Shown here piece by piece: positions 1,935 through 51,829 of a stretch of 64,000 nt of DNA. Made by a program: the position numbers and the translations under genes. How positions within the stretch are numbered: position 1 is the stretch's first letter; each line of letters begins with the position of its first letter. The stretch is from positions 8,644,581 through 8,708,580 of the forward strand of contig OY747712.1 in NCBI GenBank assembly GCA_963556495.2, given 5' to 3'. Origin of the DNA: Valencia hispanica. Its lineage: Eukaryota > Chordata > Actinopteri > Cyprinodontiformes > Valenciidae. Under the pieces are notes generated by a model. It ran no database searches and was not told the origin of the DNA. It worked only from the letters and a program-made list of their open reading frames with translations.

Positions 1935-2983
1935 CATTCTAATTTTGGATAATTTTGGTTTATTTCATTTGGAATTTGATAGGTCAGAACTAGGTAGAAC
2001 TAGAGTATATTTAAGTGGATTTAAGTAAGGTACTGGTCAGGCATTTTTCTGTGTAACTGCTTATTTTCTATTGTTAGTATGTTAATGCATTTACCAAAAT
2101 TTTTTTTATTTTTGTATCCATTATTTCTTCAATGATTGATTTTCATTTACAATTCATGGATGCCAACCAGCTCTATAAGTCCGTCTTTACCCATTGCCAT
2201 GTTAATTTTTGGCCATCTACCTTTAAGATCTTCCGTTAGTTTTGGCTGCAACACTTTTACTCCATCGGCCCAAATATATCTCAACCCTTGTCACAACATG
2301 AGAACACTTTCCGATTTTCACCATTTTCTGCTCCTTTCTGTCACTCTGCCTCTGTGTAGAGAGGTTGATCCATCATGCACACACATTAACTGACACAGAT
2401 ATAAACACTCACACAACCAGGCCATCTCCCCCACAAGAATGTCATTCCAGGGATAGGTTTATCCATCACAGATGCAGCTACACATGCAGACACATGGAGA
2501 CAAAGACGTTCACACATGGCGCACATACCAAGTACACATGTGATTGCACATACCCTTCCAACATGTGTGTCATTCCAACAGCTTTATCCATCACTCACGC
2601 TCCTTAGTTTTTGACATAGAAACACAAGCAGGTACCGTGGATATTACCAGGTAATTGGACACTCTGTTGGGAGGGGGTTGTGTGTTCTGAATTATTTTCA
2701 GTTTTGTCAGAGAGCCGAAAGACTCCTCTATGACCTGACTGTTCATCAGCTGACAAAAGAAGCTCCCTATTGGCAACTTTCATCTTATGGAATATAGGGA
2801 AACTCAGACTGTAAAAATACGCTTAAACACATAAAATAAATATGGTTAAAACACATTTTAGATCGAATCCAGTCTGACTTTTCAAGCCCCTAACAGTCAC
2901 TGGAACCACTTACCCAGGACAAACTGACAAAAATGTAATAAGACATCCTTTAAAATAACTTCATGTTTACATGTTGTAACAAA
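1935..2983. other. Unassigned AT-rich interval
   Basis: No gene, RNA or classified repeat was recognised. A CA/ACAC-rich stretch at about 2370-2580 looks like decayed low-complexity DNA. The small open frames here are short, overlap one another and match nothing known to me. Confidence 0.5.
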
Positions 2984-3277
2984 TATACACTCAACAAAAA
3001 TATAAACGCAACACCTTTGTTTCTGCTCCCATTTTTCATGAGATGGACTTAAAGATCTAAAATTCCTTCCAGATACACAATATTACAATTTCTCTCAAAC
3101 ATTGTTCACAGATCAGTGTGATAGTGAGCACTTCTGCTTTGCTGAGATAATCCATCCCACCTCACAGGTGTGCCACATCAAGATGCTGATCTGACATCAT
3201 GATTAGTGCACAGGTGTACCTTATACTGCCCACAATAAAAGGCCACCCTGGAATGTGCAGTTTTGTCTCACAGCAAA

Positions 3278-4291
3278 ATGCCACAGATGCCACAAGCATT
3301 GAGGGAGCGTGCAATTGGCATACTGACAGCAGGAATGTCAACCAGATCTGTTGCTCGTGCATTGAATGTTCATTTCTGCACCATAAGCCGTCTCCAAAGG
3401 CGTTTCAGAGAATATGGCAGTACATCCAACCGGCCTCACAACCGCAGACCACGTGTAACCAAACCAGCCCAGGACCTCCACATCCAGCAGGTTCACCTCC
3501 AAGATTGTCTGAGACCAGCCACTCAGACAGCTGCTGAAACAATTGGTTTGCATAACCAAACAATTTCTGCACAAACTGTCAGAAACCGTCTCAGGGAAGC
3601 TCAACTGCATGCTCGTCGTCCTCATCGGGGTCTTGACCTGACTCCAGCTCGTCGCCGTAACAGACTTGAGTGGGCAAATGCTCACATTCGATGGCGTCTG
3701 GCACGTTGGAGAGGTGTTCTCTTCACGGATGAATCTCGGTTTACATTGTTCAGGGCAGATGGCAGACAGCGTGTGTGGCGTCGTGTGGGTGAGCCCTTTG
3801 GTGATGTCAATGTTGTGGATCGAGTGGCCCATGGTGGTGGTGGGGTTATGGTATGGACAGGCATCTGTTATGGACAAAGAACACAGGTGCATTTTATTGA
3901 TGGCATTTTGAATGCACAGAGATACCGTGATGAGATCCTGAGGCCCATTGTTTTGCCATACATCCATGAACATCACCTCATGTTTCAGCAAGATAATGCA
4001 CGGCCCCATGTTGCAAGGACCGGAACACAATTCTTGGAAGCTGAAAATGTCCCAGTTCTTGCATGGCCAGCATACTCACCGGACATGTCACCCATTGAGC
4101 ATGTTTGGGATGTGCTTGACCGGCGTATACGACAGCGTGTACCAGTTCCCACTAATATCCAACAACTTCGCACAGCCATTGAAGAGGAGTGGATCAACAT
4201 TCCACAGGCCACAATTGACAATCTGATAAACTCTATGCGAAGAATATGTGTTGCACTGCATGAGGCAAATGGTAGTCACACCAGATACTGA
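3278..4291 (+). CDS. Tc1-like transposase, 337 aa, uninterrupted
   Basis: This enzyme cuts and pastes its own element: it binds the terminal repeats through an N-terminal paired-like double helix-turn-helix (about residues 1-110, with a basic NRRPR stretch at 55-59) and cleaves DNA with an RNase-H-fold DDE domain. The catalytic triad is visible: D151 in LFTDESRF, D239 in MFQQDNARPH and E274 in SPIEHVWD. The spacing from the second D to the E is exactly 34 residues (DD34E), as in Tc1. A GGGGVMVW glycine-rich box lies at 186-193. I start at the first ATG (3278); the frame stays open five codons upstream, but only from a TTG. The length is usual for the family, about 340 aa. No stop or frameshift is present. 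Whether it is active depends on point substitutions I cannot judge without a family alignment. Confidence 0.92.
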   Translation: MPQMPQALRERAIGILTAGMSTRSVARALNVHFCTISRLQRRFREYGSTSNRPHNRRPRVTKPAQDLHIQQVHLQDCLRPATQTAAETIGLHNQTISAQTVRNRLREAQLHARRPHRGLDLTPARRRNRLEWANAHIRWRLARWRGVLFTDESRFTLFRADGRQRVWRRVGEPFGDVNVVDRVAHGGGGVMVWTGICYGQRTQVHFIDGILNAQRYRDEILRPIVLPYIHEHHLMFQQDNARPHVARTGTQFLEAENVPVLAWPAYSPDMSPIEHVWDVLDRRIRQRVPVPTNIQQLRTAIEEEWINIPQATIDNLINSMRRICVALHEANGSHTRY

Positions 4292-4314
4292 CCGGTTCTA
4301 AACCCCCGACCCCC

Positions 4315-4320
4315 AATAAA
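4315..4320 (+). promoter_or_regulatory. Polyadenylation signal AATAAA of the Tc1 transposase gene
   Basis: A canonical AATAAA lies 24 bp after the transposase stop codon and just inside the right terminal inverted repeat. Its position fits a functional 3' end, although the assignment is by position only. Confidence 0.45.
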
Positions 4321-4707
4321 GCAAAAAACTGCACATTCCAGGGTGGCCTTTTATTGTGGGCAGCATAAGGTACACCTGTGCACTAATCATGATGTCAGAT
4401 CAGCATCTTGATGTGGCACACTTGTGAGGTGGGATGGATTATCTCAGCAAAGCAGAAGTGCTCACTATCACACATTTAGACTGATTTGTGAACAAAGTTG
4501 GAGAGAAATGGTAATATTGTGTATCTGGAATGAATTTTTAATCTTTAAGTCCATCTCATGAAAAATGGGAGCAGAAACAAAGGTGTTGCGTTTATATTTT
4601 TGTTGAGTGTATATTTAAGCAGTACACTGTCTATCACTACTCGCTGATCCGTTGTCAATCTTCCCTGTGTTTCCTGTTCCTTGTTAAATTCAATTCTAAG
4701 TTCTTAC

Positions 4708-6650
4708 CTTTTCTGTAGTGATGGTGAGATGAAGCCCCATGAGGCATTGAACCACTTGAGCCAATTGGTTCAAGAAAGGGTTTTGCTCACTGGGCTTCAT
4801 GTGAACACAAACCCCCCTACTGGCCAGGTACATTATCACAGGCAGCTGTAGCTCTTAGCCACTTAATGTGTGATGCATTAAAGTTGTAAGTCTGCTATGA
4901 TTCTTGAGAATGACTATGAGTTCCAGAAAAATAATATCTCTACATAAACTATTACAAATGTGAATAATAATATTTTTAATGTATTCTGTCTGTAAATTAT
5001 CCCAAAACGGTAGTATCATATGTTATGGCAGGTTGTATAATGTTTTTGTATCACTTGAGGCAAAAGGCATGGGCTTAAGCAGGCAGAGGAAAGTGAAAAT
5101 GCTTGTGGAACTAGGAATAGGGTACTGAAAAGGATTGTGTATCTTGGGCAATAATGTACAAAACAGGGGAAATTTTTTTTATTCAAAAATAGCAGTTTCT
5201 CAACAGTTTTAGGTTTTAAGCGATTCCTTTTTCTTGACACCAACCCACCAGCCTTCCAAAACACTCCTTTACAAGGCACAGAAGATGCCGGCGTACATAA
5301 GAACACAAGTGCTAAACTATAGACATTGGGGTACAGCAATTTTTGCTTTTCCCAATACTCCGGGGGGGTTTCCAGCCTGCTAATATTTGCCTCCCACACA
5401 GGGAAATCCTCCTCTTCCTAGCTGGCTCCACTCTCTCACTTATCTCTCTCTCCTCACTTTCCTAAATTAGGGTGACCATATTTTGATTTCTAAAAAAAGA
5501 GGACTCTTGAAGCAGTCCTGAAACACTGTCATGACTGTGACCAGACTTTTGATTTTAACATATTTAAAGCATGCATTCTCCATGTGGTTAGAATGAACGG
5601 TTTAATAACAAACTTCAGTTAGGCTTTCACAAGTGCAAAAATGACTTTAAAATCTCTAGAAATTAATTAATAATAGAAATAATTACTCTTCCGAATTAGA
5701 AAATGTACCAGAAACAGTAGGCCTAATAGTTTGCTTTACTGGACAAAAATTAAACAAAAATTTGAAATAACATACTGAGGAAACAGGTATTTTCTTTTCA
5801 ATGTAATAATAAAATTAAAAATCACCAGTCTCAAAAACACAATAATGCCTGCTCCATTTTTTAGATTTTATCTTCATCCTCCTCAGTCAGTTTATAGATG
5901 AATTATTTTTATAGGCTAGATTTCATTTCCATGTGGACCTACTAGATCTTTGCCACTTTTGTCACACACCAAAACACATATGCCAGCTCTGTTTGTCTGT
6001 AAAGCTATACTTGCACTTTAATATCTTGTAAACAGTCGCAAAGCCGTGCGCACACACAGTGAAGGGTAAGGTGGTGCAGCGCATCAAAGCTCGCTGTCTG
6101 TTACGTCTATGAATTGGTTCAGAACCATCCACGAAAGCGAATTTGTCGTATTGCATGCATCGCACCAGTCAATTTAAGTATGCTCATTACTCCCCTTAAA
6201 AAAACAGGACATTTTCATCAATCTATGAAGTCCCCTCGGCTGCCCTGGACAGTACGTGAAAGTGGACATGTCAGGTGAAAACAGGACGGTTGGTCACCCT
6301 ACCTAAATCTTATCTTTCTCTCCTCAGTCTCCTAAATCTTCAAACTATCTGTCTCCGTACTCTAAAAACTATATAAACACTAACCAAACTCTCCTATCCA
6401 AACTCCAAACTCACTGCAACTCTCCTACAAAAAGGGGATTTATATTGCTGTCAAACCACTCAGCAAACTCTGAACCACTTCCTGAAGCGGTCACGTGGTA
6501 CAGCCGGGCAGCGGGACTTCAGACGTCATCGTTTCCAGCTCCTCTCCAAAATGAAGCAGGCCTCGATACGCGCTTTGTGGAAACGCCCCCTCCACTGCTC
6601 GACACACGCTTCGTAGCCTCGGCACACATTGTAACATCACTACTTTTCTG
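4708..6650. mobile_element. hAT-type element with perfect 8-bp target duplication, inside an LTR
   Basis: The element runs 4716-6642 (1927 bp including a nested insertion). It starts TAGTGATGGTGAGATGAAGC and ends CATTGTAACATCACTA, giving an 8-bp inverted end TAGTGATG. The flanks at 4708-4715 and 6643-6650 are both CTTTTCTG, a perfect 8-bp duplication diagnostic of hAT insertion. No transposase frame is visible; the part outside the nested element is non-coding. It interrupts the gypsy LTR remnant and is itself interrupted at 5468-6301. Confidence 0.85.
5461..6308. mobile_element. Nested hAT-like MITE inside the 4716-6642 element
   Basis: The element runs 5468-6301 (834 bp) and has perfect 11-bp inverted ends TAGGGTGACCA. 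It is flanked by CCTAAAT on both sides (5461-5467 and 6302-6308). That is a 7-bp shared duplication, one short of the usual 8 for hAT, so one flanking base has probably changed. The interior is AT-rich with no transposase. It is the third layer of a nest: LTR, then hAT, then this element. Confidence 0.75.
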
Positions 6651-7225: not shown

Positions 7226-9230
7226 ATAGGCCAACTGAGTGAGGACAAAACCAGTTTTGTTCTAGTTTTCTAGCTCCTTTTATGATAGACATCAGCATTA
7301 TGTATGACCCTAAAGCAGTGAAGTGATGACTGGTCTAAGCCCAGATGCAGGTCATTACAATAATCTATACACACTGACATGAAAATGGATTAGTCTTTCT
7401 AAGTCCTTAGGCAAAAAAATAAGGTTTTACCTAATCAAGAATTTGCAACAGAAAAAAGACTTAAATTATCTAATTTACCTAAAGGTAGTCCTATGAAGCA
7501 TTAAGCTTTCACACCACAAGTTTTCATGGCTTTCAAAACAAAACTAGAACTTCACATTGATGCTCTACATTGATCACATGAACCCTAATTAAATTCATTA
7601 AAGGTGCTAATTGTACTATATAGAAATGGGAAAGAGTTCAAGGTGCATTAATAGTTTTGCAAAACACTGTTCTTCGCAAAAACAAATCTCACACATTCAC
7701 CCCTTTTGTTGAAAACACCCAGAATATACTACCCGAACTTCAGGGTAATTTTATCGCAACTTGACTGTATGAATGTGTCTCCACTACACCGGGCATTTCG
7801 GGCCATTTGAGAAACCAACCAAGTACCAGCCTTGGAGTATGTCTTCGGAAATGACCCAGTAGACTTGCTGGGTGGGCGGATAAATGACTTTAGTCACTGC
7901 AGAAATGGTCATGATATGCGAACATCTATTCCTTAAAGGACCAATTCTGGATGGAGACACGATGGCTAAGAGGAGTGGGCCAACCTCGTCAGATGAAGAT
8001 CCGGTAAAATTACCTTGAAGTTCCAACAGTGGAAATGTGCCTATAGGGTTAAGGTGGACAAAATGTGTCAAATGGAGCTCAGCAAATGCCAATTTACCCC
8101 TGATTTGGACCGATAGAGGCCTCTAGTTTGTGTAAATACTTCTTCTTACTCGCTTAATAAATGCAGTATAGCAAAGCCCATACGGAGAGACAGGCTTTTT
8201 CTATTTTTCTCAAATTCTGCCTACTTCATTTGAAAGCACTGAGGCATTCAGAGTGAGAATCAGTCAAACAGCAAACAGAAGAAGGAGGTCGCATGGCCTG
8301 CTGCTTCCTAGAGGCTTGATTTTCCTCACCTACATAGTTCCCTTGAGGCTGCTCACCCACTCTTTAAATGTTCCCCATGCACAAAACCCACCAATTTCAC
8401 TTTTCATTTGCAGCACTTTTCTGTGGCTTTGAAACAATATTGATATAAAAGACTGCAAGCTTTTGAGGTCGGGACTGGGATGGAAGTCACCGAGCCATAG
8501 TGCATCAGGGCGGTTCAGTGGTCAGACCTCAGAAAGAGGAAAGAAAAAAATAGTATTACAAGGTCTTTTTATCATGCCAATATAACAGATAAGGGACATA
8601 GTGTTAGGTGTGCGATTTAAGTGTCTGTTCAAGCGTCACAGCTTTGTTCGTGAGGGTAAATTCAGTCTGATCGGGTCTGACTCCATGTAGAGTTGTTTTG
8701 ATTGGCTGTCTACACCGATACCCCCACCATGGTCAATCACAATTTGTTTATATAATTTTCAACAATATGAAATTTTGAAGGTGCATACCCACTGAGAATA
8801 TTGATGTGAAGTCAGTGGTTTATCCAGCACTTTAGCAGTGCCTGTAGCCAGCATGAATAATGGGTTTTATGGTACAGGAAATTATTATTACCAGAGCCCC
8901 TGTTCAGTTTGATAGAGTACGCTTATATTCTTTTGTGCTTCATTAGATGGCTCACAGAGAAAAGAAGAGCAGAGAAAATGAAAAGAATAAAGAAAGATAT
9001 ATAGGAAATTTGTGAAAAAATGAAAAGCTTTCAAGCTTCATTTCATAAAAACAAAACATCTTTAAAACACAGGGCAAAGTTACACATATGCTTATCAGAT
9101 GCATTGTTTAATATATCTTCACTCATCTGAAGTTTAGGCATCATGCTTAGTGTCACAGTAAAAACACTCTTTCCTTTCAAGAAAACAGAAATGTTTCAAA
9201 TGTGGTTTTTTGAGAATCTTATCAGTTCAT
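7226..9230. other. Unassigned interval
   Basis: No recognised gene or repeat. A minus-strand open frame at 7784-8092 (102 aa) matches no family I know and lacks splice or codon evidence; it may belong to an unclassified repeat. The rest is AT-rich with short homopolymer runs. Confidence 0.4.
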
Positions 9231-9790
9231 TTAAAGGGGGGGTAATATGCAAATGGACTTTCTGAAGCTTGATATCCTGAGAACCTGTCTTTCCCTCATT
9301 AAAAACATACATGAAGTGTTTCTCTGACCCATTCACTCATGTTAGAGTAATCTTTGAGTCTCTGCTGGTAGTTCTCGGGGTTGTGGAAACGCTTGCTCCC
9401 ACCTATCCCCGCCTTTTCCACCCATCTCCTCCTCTGACCTTACGTACTCAGCTGAGAGCCACGCCCCGGCAGAGCTCCCCTACCCCTCCCCACCTCACAC
9501 AACTCCGGCTGAGTCCCAGGTGCAGTAATTATAGCACACCAGCTGCAGCTGCACGTCTTTTGTGGGATTTTTTTTTTCAACTCCGTGCATGATGCGATGA
9601 TGCGCGGTATGTGACGAACTTAAGGGGGAGTGTCAGAAAGAGTAGGAGGGTCTTAGAGAGGCACAGGCGAAAAATCTAGTAAATGTATTTAAGGTGGATT
9701 TGGATATATGACGGACTTTTAAAAGACTTATTTTATTGGAGTGTGCTATAGAATGGTAATATGTGCCTGGAAGAAGCACAATACCCCCCT
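9231..9790. mobile_element. TTAA-target non-autonomous DNA element, copy 1
   Basis: It starts with TTAA followed by AGGGGGGGTAATATGC and ends ...GCACAATACCCCCC at about 9789. Almost the whole length aligns, in reverse complement, with 21472-22030. Shared blocks include the GAGTCTCTGCTGGTAGTTCT, CTGAGAACCTGTCTTTCCC and GGAGTGTGCTATA segments. The right-hand TTAA is not preserved here (tccctttgg instead), so the outer edge comes from the second copy. No transposase frame is present. A piggyBac or Kolobok-type origin is inferred from the TTAA target only. Confidence 0.75.
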
Positions 9791-9826: not shown

Positions 9827-12336
9827 AAAGGCAATACATTCTCCTCCTTTGCTGGCGGGGAGGCTGTTGCTGTGTAGCGACAGGTGCTCTCCCCCCGTGG
9901 GGCTTTGTGGTGGCCGTGGGCCCTGGGTCGAATGTGCCATGGCCTCCCTCCCCTGGTGGATCCCGGTGAACAGCGGTGCCTATTGGGGTCAGTGGGGGAG
10001 CTGGCTCCCTGGGAAGACATTTGTCTCCCAGTCCTTCCCTCCCCATCCCTGGACACCTCTGTCCACCCGCTCCATCACTTTACCACTCATATAGGGTCTT
10101 GGGGCATGGGCACATCACTGGGGTGTGAGGAGGGGCTTCCCTCCTCGCTATCCCGTGGCGTCCTGGGTCCCAATTTTAATATACAACTTAGACACTCCCA
10201 CTTATAACATTCTCACGCGACACATATGTAGGGACTTTGGGGTGGGCACACTTTTCGGCATCCAGAGGGGTAGCGGTTCAATCAGCTTCACCTCTGGTGG
10301 CGGTGCCCACTGTTAAACCACATATAGACACTGAGGGCTCGGGGTGGGGGTTGGGGGATGTGTGGCTGCCTTCCCCACATCCCACCCCTCTGTTTTAAAT
10401 GCACATTATAACAACACGCATCAACACCATACTCGAGCGGGAGGATGGAGGCTAGGGGTCTTTTCACACCCCTGTTCGCTACGGGCCATCAGGGGTTGGA
10501 GTCCGGAGGAGGAACAGGCGGTCTGGTCGGGGTCCTGGGCTGTCGGGCTGCTTTGCCACTGTGGGGCCCTTGGCGATCTGCTTGTCTCCGTTCTAGAAGG
10601 TAGGGGGTCCATCTCCCGGGTCCGGGGGCTGGTGGCTCTACTGGGGCATCGGTACCTGGACCTGGGAGCATAAAGTGTGTATGGGGTGTGTGAGTGAGGG
10701 TACAGCGTCATTTTTTTGGGTGTCTTGGTGAGTCAGTGAGAATGTATGGGTTTAAGAGGGAGGGAACGTATGACTGTTTCTGTATGTCTTTGTCTACCTT
10801 TCAGACTGGATCTTGGTCTGCCCCCTCGCCTGGCGCACCTCAGGCCTTACACTTAATGGGGGGCCTATTTCCCCTCCGTCACTCCCCGCCGGTGACGGGG
10901 GCCCCTGCCTGCCGGAGCATCGGTGGTCAATCCGGTTCGGACCTGGTGCGTGCCTGGCCGGGCCTGGGGGGGCCGGTGTGTCGGTCAGCCGATGCGCTGG
11001 GCCGATACCTTCCTTTGGTTGGTTGGGGCACCTCTTCTAGGGGTGCCAGGTTTGGGATTGTTGGGTGGTGCCTGCTCGGTGGCTCGGCGGGATGCGGATC
11101 CGGCGTCTCTGCTCGTTTCATCACCTGTTCTGTGCGCACCGTGCGTGGTCGGGTCATTGGCGGGTTGGACCGGCCCTGGCCTTCATTGGGTACCTGGTCT
11201 CGGCGCTCTGCATTGCGCGGGATCAGGACCCGGGAGCTGGTACAACTTGGTGTCCAGATGCTGGCTGAGCCCGGCCTGGGGATGCTGTCGGTTCCCTACG
11301 GCTATCGGTGGGGCGCCCCGACGTAGGGCAGAGGTGGGGCGCTGGGATGTTGGCGGTGGGGATTGGCCTAGGGTGCCGGGGGCCCCTCGTCGGCCGGTCC
11401 CTTGTCGGGTCCCTGCTGGGGGGTGGGTGCCCCTGGGCCCCGGCTCTCCTGGTCCATTGACTGGCCCGCCCTGGCGCGGCCGGTTGCCGGCGGGGCCCGT
11501 GGGCTCGTCACTGCTGCTCCCCGGGCCCCTGCATAGTAGCCGCTGGACGTTCCCCTGAGGTTCTCCTTTGCTCCACTCTTGGGGGATGCGGTCGGCCCCG
11601 CCGGGTCCGCCTGGGACTCTGGGGGTCCTTTGGACGTCTTTGCTCCGATCTCCTTCATGTCTGCATCGATTCCTGGGAGACGGATTGATGCCTACTCACA
11701 CCAACTATCGAACACTCTTATGGAGAAACCTTATATGCACCAGCATGCTAACACACACACATAGATGTGGGGTCTCTGGTGTTTAAGGATATATTCTTAG
11801 GCTGAGGTTATCATTACTAGAGCTTGATTAATCAGTACCATGAGTTTTTCTGTGACATTGTTGTTGTATTTTTATATCTATTTTTGTGTGATGTGGTTGT
11901 GTAATTCTTAGTTCACAATGTTTGGTTTGTTTTGTCGATGTTCCTTTTTCGTGTTTTGTTTTGTTTTTCCCCTTCTCTCTGCCGTCCTGTGGGTATGGAG
12001 GCAGACTTCAATGTCTTCCTGTGTTTTCTTTGTTCCCCTTCCTCTCTTGTATTTTCAACTCACCCTCTCTCTTGACTTTTTGTTTCCTACCTCTCTTCTT
12101 CATCTTCCTTCTTTCTTCTCCTTAATTTTCCATCTCCGTGTCCATAACATCAGGAAATTAAAACCCCATCAATTCATAAAAGATTTTTCACACATATTTC
12201 AAGTGGAGGACTATAGTAAAAGCTGTACTGCTCTGCTTGTGAAAGTAAATCTGTTGGGCTTCTACTTGGTACTCAGACACCAATTCTGAGCTCCACACTG
12301 CCAAACAGGACACGTAAAAAAAAGGCAATACATTCT
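9827..12336 (+). mobile_element. GC-rich retroposed insertion flanked by a perfect 16-bp direct repeat
   Basis: The 16-mer AAAGGCAATACATTCT occurs at 9827-9842 and again at 12321-12336. The second copy directly follows an A-run, giving ...CACGTAAAAAAAAGG. This is the signature of target-primed reverse transcription with a 3' tail on the plus strand. The left junction reads TATT|AAAGG, compatible with an L1-type endonuclease site. The insert (about 2.48 kb) is strikingly GC-rich from 9843 to about 11660, then pyrimidine-rich (11900-12130), then AT-rich. I see no reverse transcriptase, endonuclease or other known domain; the open frames of about 210 aa near 10694-11558 overlap in different frames and look like a by-product of GC richness. 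The family is unknown to me. It could be a non-autonomous LINE-dependent element or the 3' portion of a larger LINE. Confidence 0.7.
10085..10430 (+). repeat. Degenerate internal repeat units in the GC-rich insertion
   Basis: Three points read CATATAGGGTCTTGGGG (10088), CATATGTAGGGACTTTGGGG (about 10222) and CATATAGACACTGAGGGCTC (about 10320). Each is followed by G-rich sequence and then an AT-rich TTTTAAAT/TTATAACA stretch. They look like diverged tandem units of roughly 100-140 bp. Alignment is by eye and the unit borders are approximate. Confidence 0.35.
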
Positions 12337-15221: not shown

Positions 15222-16831
15222 TACAGTGGCTTGCAAAAGTATTCGGCCCCCTTGAACTTTTCCACATTTTGTCGCATTACAGCCACAAACATGAATCAAT
15301 TTTATTGGAATTCCACGTGAAAGACCAATACAAAGTGGTGTACACGTGAGAAGTGGAACGAAAATCATACATGATTCCAAACATTTTTTACAAATAAATA
15401 ACTGAAAAGTGGGGTGTGCGTAATTATTCAGCCCCCTGAGTCAATACTTTGTAGAACCACCTTTTGCTGCAATTCCAGCGGCCAGTCTTTTAGAGTATGT
15501 CTCTACCAGCTTTGCACATCTAGAGACTGAAATTCTTGCCCATTCTTCTTTGCAAAACAGCTCCAGCTCAGTCAGATTAGATGGACAACGTTTGTGAACA
15601 GCAGTTTTCAGATCTTGCCACAGATTCTCGATTGGATTTAGATCTGGACTTTGACTGGGCCATTCTAACACATGGATATGTTTTGTTTTAAACCATTCCA
15701 TTGTTGCCCTGGCTTTATGTTTAGGGTCGTTGTCCTGCTGGAAGGTGAACCTCCGCCCCAGTCTCAAGTCTTTTGCAGACTCCAAGAGGTTTTCTTCCAA
15801 GATTGCCCTGTATTTGGCTCCATCCATCTTCCCATCAACTCTGACCAGCTTCCCTGTCCCTGCTGAAGAGAAGCACCCCCAGAGCATGATGCTGCCATCA
15901 CCATATTTGACAGTGGGGATGGTGTGTTCAGAGTGATGTGCAGTGTTAGTTTTCCGCCACACATAGCGTTTTGCATTTTGGCCAAAAAGTTCCATTTTGG
16001 TCTCATCTGACCAGAGCACCTTCTCCCACATGTTTGCTGTGTCCCCCACATGGCTTGTGGCAAACTGCAAACGGGACTTCTTACGGTTTTCTTTTAACAA
16101 TGGCTTTCTTCCTGCCACTCTTCCATAAAGGCGAACTTAGTGCATTGCACGACTAATAGTTGTCCTATGGACAGATTCCCCCACCTAAGGTGTAGATCTC
16201 TCCAGCTCGTCCAGAGTCACCATGAGCCTCTTGGATGCATTTCTGATCAGCGCTCTCCTTGTTCGGCCTGTGAGTTTAGGTGGACGGCCTTGTCTTGGTA
16301 GGTTTACAGTTGTGCCATACTCCTTCCATTTCTGAATGATCGCTTGAACAGTGCTCCGTGGGATGTTCAAGGCTTGGGAAATCTTTTTGTAGCCTAAGCC
16401 TGCTTTAAATTTCTCAATAACTTTATCCCTGACCTGTCTGGTGTGTTCTTTGGACTTCATGGTGTTGTTGCTCCCAACATTCTCTTAGACAACCTCTGAG
16501 GCCGTCACAGGGCAGCTGTATTTGTACTGACATTAGATTACACACAGGTGCACTCTATTTAGTCATTAGCACTCATCAGGCAATGTCTATGGGCAACTGA
16601 CTGCACTCAGACCAAAGGGGGCTGAATAATTACGCACACCCCACTTTTCAGTTATTTATTTGTAAAAAATGTTTGGAATCATGTATGATTTTCGTTCCAC
16701 TTCTCACGTGTACACCACTTTGTATTGGTCTTTCACGTGGAATTCCAATAAAATTAATTCATGTTTGTGGCTGTAATGTGACAAAATGTGGAAAAGTTCA
16801 AGGGGGCCAAATACTTTTGCAAGCCACTGTA
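15222..16831 (-). mobile_element. Tc1-like (Sleeping-Beauty-like) transposon, complete but with a broken gene
   Basis: The element runs 15224-16829 (1606 bp), flanked by TA on both sides. The ends are CAGTGGCTTGCAAAAGTATT and its complement. Terminal inverted repeats are about 213 bp (15224-15436 and 16617-16829). Near their inner ends a second copy of the outer motif appears (TAATTATTCAGCCCCC against AGTATTCGGCCCCC). This is the IR/DR arrangement with two transposase-binding sites per end known from Sleeping Beauty-type elements. The two repeats are almost identical by eye. The transposase gene is on the minus strand. Confidence 0.93.
15441..16460 (-). pseudogene. Tc1-like transposase, 339 codons, two in-frame stops
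   Basis: The frame starts at ATG 16460 and stays in register to the final stop at 15441, with no frameshift. Codon 92 is TAG (16185-16187) and codon 108 is TAA (16137-16139). The N-terminal paired-like domain (residues 1-91, with GRPPKLT at 58-64) is intact. The DDE domain keeps D152 (LWSDETK), D243 (FQQDNDPKH) and E278 (NPIENLW), with 34 residues between the last two. These positions are one less than the triad I recall for the 340-residue Sleeping Beauty transposase. The stops fall in the linker between DNA-binding and catalytic domains, so only an N-terminal DNA-binding fragment could be made from this reading. Such a fragment could in principle compete for terminal repeats; that is inference. 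Confidence 0.92.
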
Positions 16832-20867: not shown

Positions 20868-21471
20868 ACGATGATGTGTAAGGACATTCACTGTTTTGCA
20901 TATTTGTACAATTCAGTCTACAAAAAGGTTCCCCAAGTCCAGTTCTCGAGCAGCTGATTTAAACACTCGACTGGTGTGTTGGAACAACTTTCCAGAGACT
21001 GCGACTAGAGCTGAGAACTGGTGGTCAACAATACTCAGTATTTTTCAGTATTTTTTCTGTAGCTGAAATATACATTTAGGCATTCAATCACATAAAACAA
21101 CGGACAAATAGAGTTAGCTGTTACATATGTCTATGCACCACAGCTGCCAGGTGATGCTGAACACTGTATCGGATTCGTAAACTAAAGAGCTAGTTTTTTT
21201 TCTTATTTATGTACTTTAATTTATTATTTATTTATGTATTTTAAGGAGCTTGTACTGCATTTCATTACTTTTGAAAATATATAATATGTAGAGTAGTCAG
21301 ACTTCAACTAAATAACACAGAGCTAAAAACACAATAGGTTCCTATAAAACACAATATAAAACTTATGAAACTTTTATTTTAATGACATTCTTTATACAAA
21401 AACACAAAAATAGCATTTTCAATGCTTTTTTGAAATGAGACCACCTTAGATTTAGATAATGTTAAAGGGGG
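20868..21471. other. Unassigned AT-rich interval
   Basis: No gene or recognised repeat between the G-run and the TTAA element. Confidence 0.5.
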
Positions 21472-22030
21472 GGTATTATGCTCCTTCCAGGGACATATTA
21501 CCCTTTTATAGCACACTCCAATAAAATTGTCACTTTAAGTCTTTTAAAAGTCCGTCATATATCCAAATCCACCTTAAAGAAATTTACTTCCGTATTGGAC
21601 GCCTTGATTTTTGCCTGTGCCTCTCTAAGACCCTCCTACTCTTTCTGACACTCCCCCTTCAGTTCGTCACATAGAGTCGGGAAAAAATCCCACAAAAGAC
21701 ACGCAGCTGCAGCTGGTGTGTTATAATTACTGCTCCTGGGACTCAGCCGAAGTTGTGTGAGGTGGAGAGGGGTAGGGGAGCTCTGCAGGGGCGAGGCTCT
21801 CGGCTGAGTACGTCAGGTTGGAGGAGATGGGTGGAAAAGGCGGGGATAGGTGGGAGCAGCGTTTCAGCAACCCCGAGAACTACCAGCAGAGACCGGCAGA
21901 GACTCAAAGATTACTCTAACATGAGTGAATGGGTCAGAGCAACACTTCAGGTATGTTTTTAATGAGGGAAAGACAGGTTCTCAGGATATCAAGCTTCAGA
22001 AAGTCCATTTTGCATGATACCCCCCTTTAA
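21472..22030. mobile_element. TTAA-target non-autonomous DNA element, copy 2 (inverted relative to copy 1)
   Basis: The element at 21476-22026 (551 bp) is flanked by TTAA at 21472-21475 and 22027-22030. Its ends are AGGGGGGGTATTATGC and GCATGATACCCCCCT, inverted repeats of about 15 bp. It matches 9231-9790 along nearly its whole length in reverse complement. No transposase is encoded. TTAA duplications are made by piggyBac and Kolobok families; neither can be chosen from these ends alone. Confidence 0.85.
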
Positions 22031-22109
22031 ATTATGTTATTGCATATCAAAGATCAGTGTAATTTGTCAGTTGAAGTTATTAGGAGCTGAATCATATTGT
22101 AAATCTATT

Positions 22110-26343: not shown

Positions 26344-26651
26344 TATCATGCTGCCCTATTCACTCCCTCTCCAAATCATCATCCTCACCTGTGTCTCCCA
26401 TCAACCACACCTGATCCTCCTCCTGCCTTTACAACCCGTCACTTCCCCTCACTCAGCGCCGGATCATTATTGTGTTGATGTCTCCTTGGTGTGTTGTCCT
26501 GCTGTATCCTGTCCTGCTCGTCCGATGTCCCGTCTTCGTTCCTGCCATCGTCATCATCACCAGCACCACTTCACCAACACCACTAATAAATATCATCACA
26601 CTAACCTACGTCTGCATTTGGGTCCATGCTCCACACACCGCACACCTGACA
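26344..26651 (+). repeat. 5' LTR of the short gypsy-like element
   Basis: 308 bp ending TGACA. It contains CACTAATAAATATC (AATAAA polyadenylation signal) and the TGCATTTGGGTCC block shared with other LTRs here. The TATA-like site of the other LTR (CCTTTATAACC) reads CCTTTACAACC here. The 155-codon frame across it is not a gene. Confidence 0.85.
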
Positions 26652-27209
26652 GAGGGATCCGGCCTTGAAGGTGGACCCAGCACTCGCTAGGGAGATCGCC
26701 GCCGGATCAGATCATTGGTCCACCCTCTCCGCCCCCACTATCTAACCGCTGGCGGAGGCCCCACCGCACCAGGACTGTCTTTGGGACCAACTGCCTGTGT
26801 GGCCGCTGCTTCCTCATCTAATCCTCCGTCGACCGACGCAGCACCCCTGTCTGCCTGTTCAGTCCCTACCTATCTGGCGGCGTCTGTCAAACCAATATCC
26901 GAGACGGAGGACGACTCAGAGCAGCGGTCCGCCTTTCTTGGGACAAGGCTGGCGTTCTGTTCCCCAGGCACTGGTCCTCGACAACATGAGCTTCCTCTAC
27001 CGCCTCACCGCAGGCAGCAACGCCGTTGAGGTAGGGCCACTTCCGGGGAGGAAGTCCGAGCCGCCTGCTCATTCCCAGTTCCAGTCCCAGCGCCAGTTCC
27101 AGTCCCAGAGCCAATTCCAGCTCTAGTCCCAGAGCCTGCCGCCATCATGGCTTCTGTCTTCCTGGCAGACACAGCGGCAGCTCTTCAGCAACCGATATTC
27201 CCCAATGGG

Positions 27210-27390
27210 TCGCTAGAGCTCCCAGGGAGGGTCAAAGAGGACCCGTCCCTGTCGCTAGAGCTCCCAGGGAGGGTCAAGGAGGACCCGTCCCTGTCACCAG
27301 AGCTCTCAGGGAGGTTCATGCAGGACCCGTCCCCGTCGCTAGAGCTCCCAGGGAGGGTCAAGGAGGACCTGTCCCCATCGCTGGAGCCTC
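27210..27390 (+). repeat. 42-bp tandem repeat, about 4.3 units, inside the LTR element
   Basis: Units start at 27210, 27252, 27294 and 27336, with a partial fifth at 27378. Each reads TCGCTAGAGCTCCCAGGGAG and continues GGTCAA...GGACCCGTCCC. The period is a multiple of three, so an open frame (from 27147) reads a 14-residue peptide repeat of the form SLELPGRVKEDPSL. Units 1, 2 and 4 are nearly identical; unit 3 is more diverged. This may be a leftover of a low-complexity gag segment. Confidence 0.9.
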
Positions 27391-27578
27391 TTCGAAGCTG
27401 ACCGCTGTTGGTCGAGCCGCCAGACTCTTCTCAGCTGTCCTCAGCGCTGCCAGACTTCCAAGGACGTAACCACAGAGACTTGAGCCCTCCTTACGTGGGC
27501 CCCCTCCACCCACCCTGGCAAGGGAGCTTCCTTTTTTTTCCTACTCCACGGCGTCTGGAATCCGCCTTAAAAGGGGGG

Positions 27579-27891
27579 GGTCATGTTACCCTATTCACTC
27601 CCTCTCCAAATCATCGTCCTCACCTGTGTCTCCCATCAACCACACTTGATCCTCCTAATTTTCTGCCTTTATAACCTGTCATTTCCCCTCACTCAGCGCC
27701 GGATCATTATTGTGTTGATATCTCCTTGGTGTGTTGTCCTGCTGTATCCCGTCCTGCTCGTCCGATGTCCTGTCTCTGTTCCTGCCTTCGTCATCATCAC
27801 CAGCACCACTTCACCAACAGCACTAATAAATATCATCACCCTAACCGGCGTCTGCGTTAGGGTCCATGCTCCACACACCGCACACCTGACA
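27579..27891 (+). repeat. 3' LTR of the short gypsy-like element
   Basis: 313 bp, preceded by the polypurine tract and ending TGACA, followed by the CCTTC target duplication. It holds CCTTTATAACC (TATA-like) and AATAAA about 155-160 bp further on, the normal order of LTR promoter and polyadenylation signals. Confidence 0.88.
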
Positions 27892-50224: not shown

Positions 50225-51829
50225 TACAGGTCCTTCTAAAAAAATTAGCATATTGTGATAAAGTTCATTCTTTTCCATAATGTAATGATAAAAATTTAAC
50301 TTTCATATATTTTAGATTCATTGCACACCAACTGAAATATTTCAGGTCTTTTATTGTTTTAAAACTGATGATTTTGGCATACAGCTCATGAAAACCCAAA
50401 ATTCCTATCTCAAAAAATTAGCATATCATGAAAAGGTTCTCTAAACGAGCTATTAACCTAATAATCTGAATCAACTAATTAACTCTAAACACCCGCAAAA
50501 GATTCCTGAGGCTTTTAAAAACTCCCAGCCTGGTTCATTACTCAAAACCGCAATCATGGGTAAGACTGCCGACCTGACTGCTGCCCAGAAGGCCATCATT
50601 GACACCCTTAAGCAAGAGGGTAAGACACATAAAGAAATTTTTCAACGAATAGGCTGTTCCCAGAGTGCTGTATCAAGGCACCTCAGTGGGAAGTATGTGG
50701 GAATGAAAAAGTGTGGCAGAAAACGCTGCACAACGAGAAGAGGTGACCGGACCCTGAGGAAGATTGTGGAGAAGGACCGATTCCAGACCTTGGGGGACCT
50801 GCGGAAGCAGTGGACTGAGTCTGGAGTAGAAACATCCAGAGCCACCGTGCACAGGCGTGTGCAGGATATGGGCTACAGGTGCCGCATTCCCCAGGTCAAG
50901 GCACCTTTGAACCAGAAACAGCGGCAGAAGCGCCTGACCTGGGCTACAGAGAAGCAGCACTGGACTGTTGCTCAGTGGTCCAAAGTACTTTTTTCGGATG
51001 AAAGCAAATTTTTCGGAAATCAAGGTGCCAGAGTCTGGAGGAAGACTGGGGAGAAGGAAATGCCAAAATGCCTGAAGTCCAGTGTTAAGTAACCACAGTC
51101 AGTGATGGTCTGGGGTGCCATGTCAGCTGCTGGTGTTGGTCCACTGTGTTTTATCAAGGGCAGGGTCAATGCAGCTAGCTATCAGGAGATTTTGGAGCAC
51201 TTCATGCTTCCATCTGCTGAAAAGCTTTATGGAGATGAAGATTTCATTTTTCAGCACGACCTGGCACCTGCTCACAGTGCCAAAACCACTGGTAAATGGT
51301 TTACTGACCATGGTATTACTGTGCTCAATTGGCCTGCCAACTCTCCTGACCTGAACCCCATAGAGAATCTGTGGGATATTGTGAAGAGGAAGTTGAGAGA
51401 TGCAAGACCCAACACTCTGGATGAGCTTAAGGCCGCTATCGAAGCATCCTGGGCCTCCATAACACCTCAGCAGTGCCACAGGCTGATTGGCTCCATGCCA
51501 CGCCGCATTGAAGCAGTCCTTTCTGCAAAAGGATTCCCGACCAAGTATTGAGTGCATAACTGAACATAATTATTTGAAGGTTGACTTTTTTTGTATTAAA
51601 AACACTTTTCTTTTATTGGTCGGATGAAATATGCTAATTTTTTTAGATAGGAATTTTGGGTTTTCATGAGCTTTATGCCAAAATCATCAGTTTAAAACAA
51701 TAAAAGACCTGAAATATTTCAGTTGGTGTGCAATGAATCTAAAATATATGAAAGTTTAATTTTTATCATTACATTATGGAAAAGAATGAACTTTATCACA
51801 ATATGCTAATTTTTTGAGAAGGACCTGTA
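50225..51829 (+). mobile_element. Tc1-like transposon, complete, one stop in its gene
   Basis: The element runs 50227-51827 (1601 bp), flanked by TA. The ends are CAGGTCCTTCTAAAAAAATT and its complement. Inverted repeats are about 200 bp (50227-50426 and 51629-51827). Within each repeat the AAAAAATTAGCATAT motif occurs at the outer and again at the inner edge, the IR/DR double-binding-site arrangement. The two repeats are nearly identical by eye, suggesting a fairly recent insertion. This family is different from the two other Tc1-like elements in the window. Confidence 0.94.
50556..51551 (+). pseudogene. Tc1-like transposase, 331 codons, single in-frame stop
   Basis: From ATG 50556 the frame is continuous to TGA 51549-51551, except for TAA at codon 179 (51090-51092). 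The N-terminal paired-like region (about 1-110, with helix-turn-helix CSQSAVSRHL near 34-43 and GRKR at 54-57) is intact. The catalytic residues D148 (LFSDESKF), D235 (FQHDLAPAH) and E270 (NPIENLW) are all present, with 34 residues between the last two. The stop lies between the first and second catalytic aspartates, in the segment KSSVK-stop-PQSVMVWGAM. The stretch just after D148 seems a few residues short of what I expect for the family, so the stop may not be the only defect. Confidence 0.93.

Follow-up and report, generated by a model that had tools for sequence, protein, structure and literature searches.

A GC-rich island in the Valencia hispanica genome is very probably a 5'-truncated LINE-1 insertion consisting of 3' UTR sequence

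Human LINE-1 carries a 3' untranslated region (UTR) of approximately 0.5 kb. Teleost L1 elements are divided into the Swimmer, Tx1-a, Tx1-b and Tx1-c branches, according to PMC4746887. L1 is AT-rich in ORF2 according to PMC7140322, in the main text of which the term "UTR" occurs zero times. No description of a long GC-rich LINE-1 3' UTR in fish was found in the literature searched, which was covered thinly and by titles, the beginnings of abstracts or passages. Such a UTR is perhaps unusual, and it may well be already known in the fish LINE-1 literature or Repbase. The segment described here is very probably a 5'-truncated teleost LINE-1 insertion of fairly young age, from an element whose GC-rich 3' UTR is long and reaches ~3.4 kb in the longest copy. 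The insertion itself is ordinary.

The segment lies in a 64,000-nucleotide stretch of V. hispanica DNA, referred to as the window, on contig C15. The 16-bp sequence AAAGGCAATACATTCT is found exactly at 9827-9842 and again at 12321-12336 on the forward strand, and these left and right copies of a target-site duplication enclose a 2,478-bp GC-rich insert. Within it, 9843-12315 (forward strand) was assigned to a 5'-truncated LINE-1 insertion containing 3' UTR sequence only, based on copy homology, the ORF2 found upstream in longer copies, and composition. An A-tail follows at 12316-12320 (forward strand), and three further A's are common to tail and duplication; the run abutting the right copy is therefore eight A's long, three of which can be read as repeat. 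The direct repeat and the A-run had both been noted in a sequence-only reading of the window and are present as described. TATT stands immediately 5' of the left copy and the putative nick reads TATT/AAAG, resembling the L1 TT/AAA site. The 16-bp match precisely at both edges is non-random, since none of 240 swapped-flank control pairs, made from related copies and scored by exact stretches of at least 9 bp, reached that length.

GC content divides the insert into a GC-rich zone at ~9843-11650 (0.59 over 9843-10400 and 0.65 over 10400-11650), an AT-rich zone at ~11650-11930 (0.38), a pyrimidine-rich zone at ~11930-12140 (0.42, with 79% pyrimidine) and a terminal part to 12315 (0.39 over 12140-12320), while the left and right flanks have values of 0.48 and 0.34, respectively. 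The compositional zones of the earlier reading are thus real by measurement. Its degenerate internal units fared less well: two-copy matches exist, mostly 71-94% identical in the window and 71-89% in the genomic copy C10, but they are weak and no tandem array was found inside the insert. The reverse transcriptase whose absence the reading had remarked on is indeed lacking from the insert, because the insert is 5'-truncated; of nine insert open frames tested, none reached a Pfam cut-off, with a single sub-threshold match (Pam16, E 0.32). Two insert open frames gave no match at E ≤ 0.001 against a large protein set, which, for a non-coding region, says little about the presence of the UTR in other species. 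Deletion runs among copies aligned over the window-equivalent region were mostly not multiples of three (53 of 69), which fits non-coding sequence. Rfam yielded no family at gathering score in the window or in L030 (the locus of copy C10), a tRNA search of the window found none, the insert was unmatched in phage and plasmid collections, and a 31-mer from it occurred zero times in viral contigs. A 19-mer from the insert retrieved eight records among genome contigs, all with bacterial titles, and these were taken as chance. No clear excess of G-quadruplex motifs was detected: the C10 UTR has five on the sense strand, where shuffled sequences average 2.5 (17/200 attain five), and one on the antisense strand (11/200), and the window copy has one on each (132/200 and 30/200 for sense and antisense).

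Other elements are found in the window. A Tc1/mariner-type transposon at 2981-4616 has ~290-bp inverted repeats (94%) around a 350-residue transposase frame (DDE_3, HTH; 3239-4288). Two more, at 15222-16831 and 50225-51829, have inverted repeats of ~200-216 bp (98.6% and 97.5%, respectively) with DDE_3 frames inside, the transposase of the latter being read in two pieces. A direct repeat of ~311 bp (92%) with a 1.24-kb spacing lies at 26346-27891, and the interval contains a 42-bp tandem array (27209-27387); the direct repeats could be the LTRs of a small element. Finally, a dispersed repeat of ~560 bp (84%) occurs on opposite strands at 9229-9789 and 21468-22032, and the left of the two stops 38 bp short of the target-site duplication.

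In order to identify related copies, positions 9827-12336 were searched against the 1.29-Gb host genome, yielding 7,272 first-look candidates, and the last 181 bp were searched separately, yielding 718; these copy-number figures are rough guides, because scoring covered only the best candidates. Among the best 40 scored in the first search, main matches were 91-96% identical (window excluded), and among the best 40 in the second, the window itself scored 100% and the remaining 39 loci 96-97%. Leaving the window aside, 20 of 39 main loci in the first set (the long copies) and 20 of 39 loci in the second set were fetched; the latter had been selected by their 3' end, and their independent information lies in the tail and flanks only. 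Divergence from the majority sequence across 21 copies of the window-equivalent region was 1.5-2.9%, with the window copy at 2.6%, in a set picked for likeness to the window, beside which older copies may exist.

The family has a single 3' end, ...CAGGACACGT, followed by an A-rich tail. A common 3' end near 12320, on which the earlier reading had been staked beforehand, is present: 15/20 long copies have ...CAGGACACG(T) plus an A-rich tail, as do, with small changes, all 20 second-set loci chosen by that end. The exact end is absent from L010, L015, L016, L019 and L028, although L016 does carry an A-rich tail, shifted a few bases upstream. The final 76 nt ahead of the tail (12240-12315, forward strand), near-identical in 16 aligned copies, form a candidate bulged hairpin with a predicted fold of -20.3 kcal/mol (z -1.97; matched by 9/200 shuffles), a weak signal resembling the LINE 3' UTR stem-loops discussed in PMC5135761.

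At the other end, 5' truncation is variable: a break is visible in eight of the 20 second-set copies and falls at eight different positions. Combining these eight with seven first-set copies and the window (the C10 break being placed by eye), 16 copies have a visible 5' break, of which seven carry a target-site duplication of at least 9 bp (17, 16, 16, 14, 13, 13 and 9 bp), against 0/240 controls. The A-tails and 10-20-bp duplications anticipated for the family are accordingly found in part, with the tail in 15/20 long copies and duplications of 9-17 bp in 7/16, but the other nine have no exact duplication of at least 9 bp. The C2 copy and L052 have a few extra bases between duplication and element. 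When the L014 flanks are rejoined with one duplication, an open 129-residue frame results which by eye is like the reverse transcriptase of another LINE, indicating that the site was intact before insertion. All seven duplication-bearing copies have T or C before the nick and A or G as the first duplicated base. The proposed L1-like endonuclease site fits TATT/AAAG in the window and the pyrimidine/purine step in 7/7 copies, but there is no tight consensus.

The match covers the first base of the insert in 12 of the 20 long copies, and family sequence goes on upstream in all 12, so position 9843 is a truncation point and no family 5' end. In the remaining eight, the match starts at insert base 53-143; six of these show family sequence farther upstream, across gaps or length differences. 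L016 starts at C10 position 5156 and L017 at 4953. For six copies (L029, L030, L031, L032, L061 and L062), the retrieved sequence extended 5-6 kb upstream, and the LINE-1 is known here from the reverse transcriptase portion of ORF2 to the 3' end. The reverse transcriptase sought upstream in longer copies is there: five of the six, namely L030 (C10), L031 (C12), L032 (C2), L061 (C18) and L062 (C28), have ORF2 ahead of the GC-rich sequence, and the sixth, L029 (C6), breaks off within the 3' UTR. A deletion joins reverse transcriptase to UTR in the C2 copy. The YADD motif was read in four of the five ORF2-bearing copies, L061 beginning downstream of the motif position, and the frame is interrupted in several copies. 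In the C18 copy (L061), 285 residues were read toward the end of ORF2, with the stop visible in the continuation. Two further observations concern the surroundings of these copies. Upstream of the C18 LINE-1, L061:1007-2503 contains long open frames that by eye resemble a Gypsy-type LTR retrotransposon polyprotein. Directly behind the C10 tail, near position 3235 of L020 (C10 7535 onward), stands an inverted LINE-1 ORF2 piece of ~345 bp (92%), which is probably a second LINE-1 fragment.

The reverse transcriptase is that of a LINE-1. Against the PDB, the L030 fragment matched human LINE-1 ORF2p at 1.4e-57, with R2-type proteins no stronger than 8e-08; in Pfam, RVT_1 was above and zf-RVT below cut-off. 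In a large protein set, 194 proteins passed E 0.001, and among the 120 matches listed, the named ones near the top are teleost (57-81%). Among these listed matches, those named LINE-1 ORF2 are from Acanthochromis polyacanthus (59%) and Xyrichtys novacula (57%), and partial matches are from Nothobranchius furzeri (78-81%), Oreochromis niloticus (78%) and Pygocentrus nattereri (67-69%). A search of viral contigs with the reverse transcriptase pattern matched four stretches, none of which was confirmed. The sequence-only reading had offered the far 3' portion of an unfamiliar LINE; the far 3' portion is correct, as copies run into ORF2, but this is not an unfamiliar clade, because the reverse transcriptase places the LINE in the well-known teleost LINE-1 group.

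Four copies extend from the ORF2 stop to the 3' end, with UTRs of 3,451 bp (C10), 3,301 bp (C12), 3,004 bp (L011) and 2,705 bp (L014) and a GC content of 57-59%; the L011 and L014 UTRs carry internal gaps relative to C10. In 250-bp windows along C10, GC is 0.28-0.42 in ORF2 and 0.62 in the window containing the stop. The insert begins at C10 position 4875, 811 bp beyond the ORF2 stop, and lacks C10 4928-5060, an internal deletion of ~133 bp with its junction at 9895/9896 (forward strand; placement uncertain by a few bases). Internal gaps of differing length, spanning C10 4243-4954, were also observed in L010, L011, L014, L025 and L027 (five of the 20 fetched), with right edges clustering at C10 4939-4954, and the L017 start coincides with these edges. 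The clustering could mark a hotspot for deletion or a point of template switching, or it could be characteristic of a subfamily.

The common 3' end, the duplications, the ORF2 in longer copies and the identity of the reverse transcriptase together indicate that the insert is a LINE-1 insertion of 3' UTR alone. Given the insert's lack of coding capacity and the many copies that likewise contain only 3' UTR, one could instead suppose a separate non-autonomous family, with a GC-rich body, a LINE-1-derived tail and its own 5' end, spread by LINE-1 machinery; the gaps ending near C10 4939-4954 and the L017 start at 4953 could hint at such a subfamily. However, a constant 5' end, expected of an independent family, appears in neither the long copies nor the second set: breaks differ in 8/8 second-set copies where visible, 12/20 long copies extend past the start of the insert, and the same sequence sits directly behind ORF2 in 5/6 copies. 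We regard this explanation as very unlikely, and the non-autonomous element of unusual size proposed earlier is unnecessary, because copies with the same 3' end extend upstream into LINE-1 ORF2.

Another possibility is that LINE-1 acted in trans on a host messenger or non-coding RNA and left a processed retrocopy, as the non-coding, GC-rich insert with its A-tail and duplication might suggest. The position of the sequence immediately behind LINE-1 ORF2 in longer copies, together with the many copies, speaks against it; as a direct origin it is already contradicted by the ORF2-joined copies, and we consider it exceedingly improbable.

For the LINE-1 insertion, retroposition by target-primed reverse transcription, as suggested from the sequence alone, is supported by the duplications (7/16 versus 0/240), the A-tail and the common 3' end; the nicking, priming and order of events given here follow established LINE-1 biology. 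LINE-1 RNA would have been carried to the site by the element's own proteins, and the endonuclease would have cut the bottom strand opposite TATT/AAAG. Annealing of the A-tail at this nick would then have allowed it to be reverse-transcribed, with synthesis presumably halting ~2.6 kb from the 3' end, within the 3' UTR, and resolution leaving the 16-bp duplication. The ~133 bp near the 5' end may have been lost at or after insertion, or may already have been absent from the source copy.

In this genome, a non-coding GC island bordered by a target-site duplication can be a LINE-1 tail, and such islands should therefore not be named a new element class. More tentatively, a fish LINE-1 lineage may have gained a 3.4-kb GC-rich 3' UTR, perhaps captured host sequence, directly behind the stop of an AT-rich ORF2, with the UTR serving the element through RNA stability or export or through local effects on CpG or chromatin. 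Many of its new insertions would then place non-coding GC islands in AT-rich surroundings; we hold this scenario to be possible, though rather doubtful. If the long GC-rich 3' UTR is peculiar to this lineage, it provides a natural case for what LINE-1 3' UTRs do and for how elements of mixed composition shift local GC content.

Compared with known systems, the element is like other teleost LINE-1s in its ORF2 reverse transcriptase relatives, A-tail, 5' truncation and target-site duplications, while the 3' UTR of up to 3.45 kb at 57-59% GC may set it apart. It resembles human LINE-1 in ORF2 reverse transcriptase homology (1.4e-57), A-tail, 5' truncation, duplications and pyrimidine/purine nick. 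A further likeness may lie at the terminus of the 3' UTR, where a hairpin of the kind discussed for human L1 in PMC5135761 is possible. The two elements differ in the length of that UTR. It reaches up to 3.45 kb here, in contrast to ~0.5 kb in human LINE-1.
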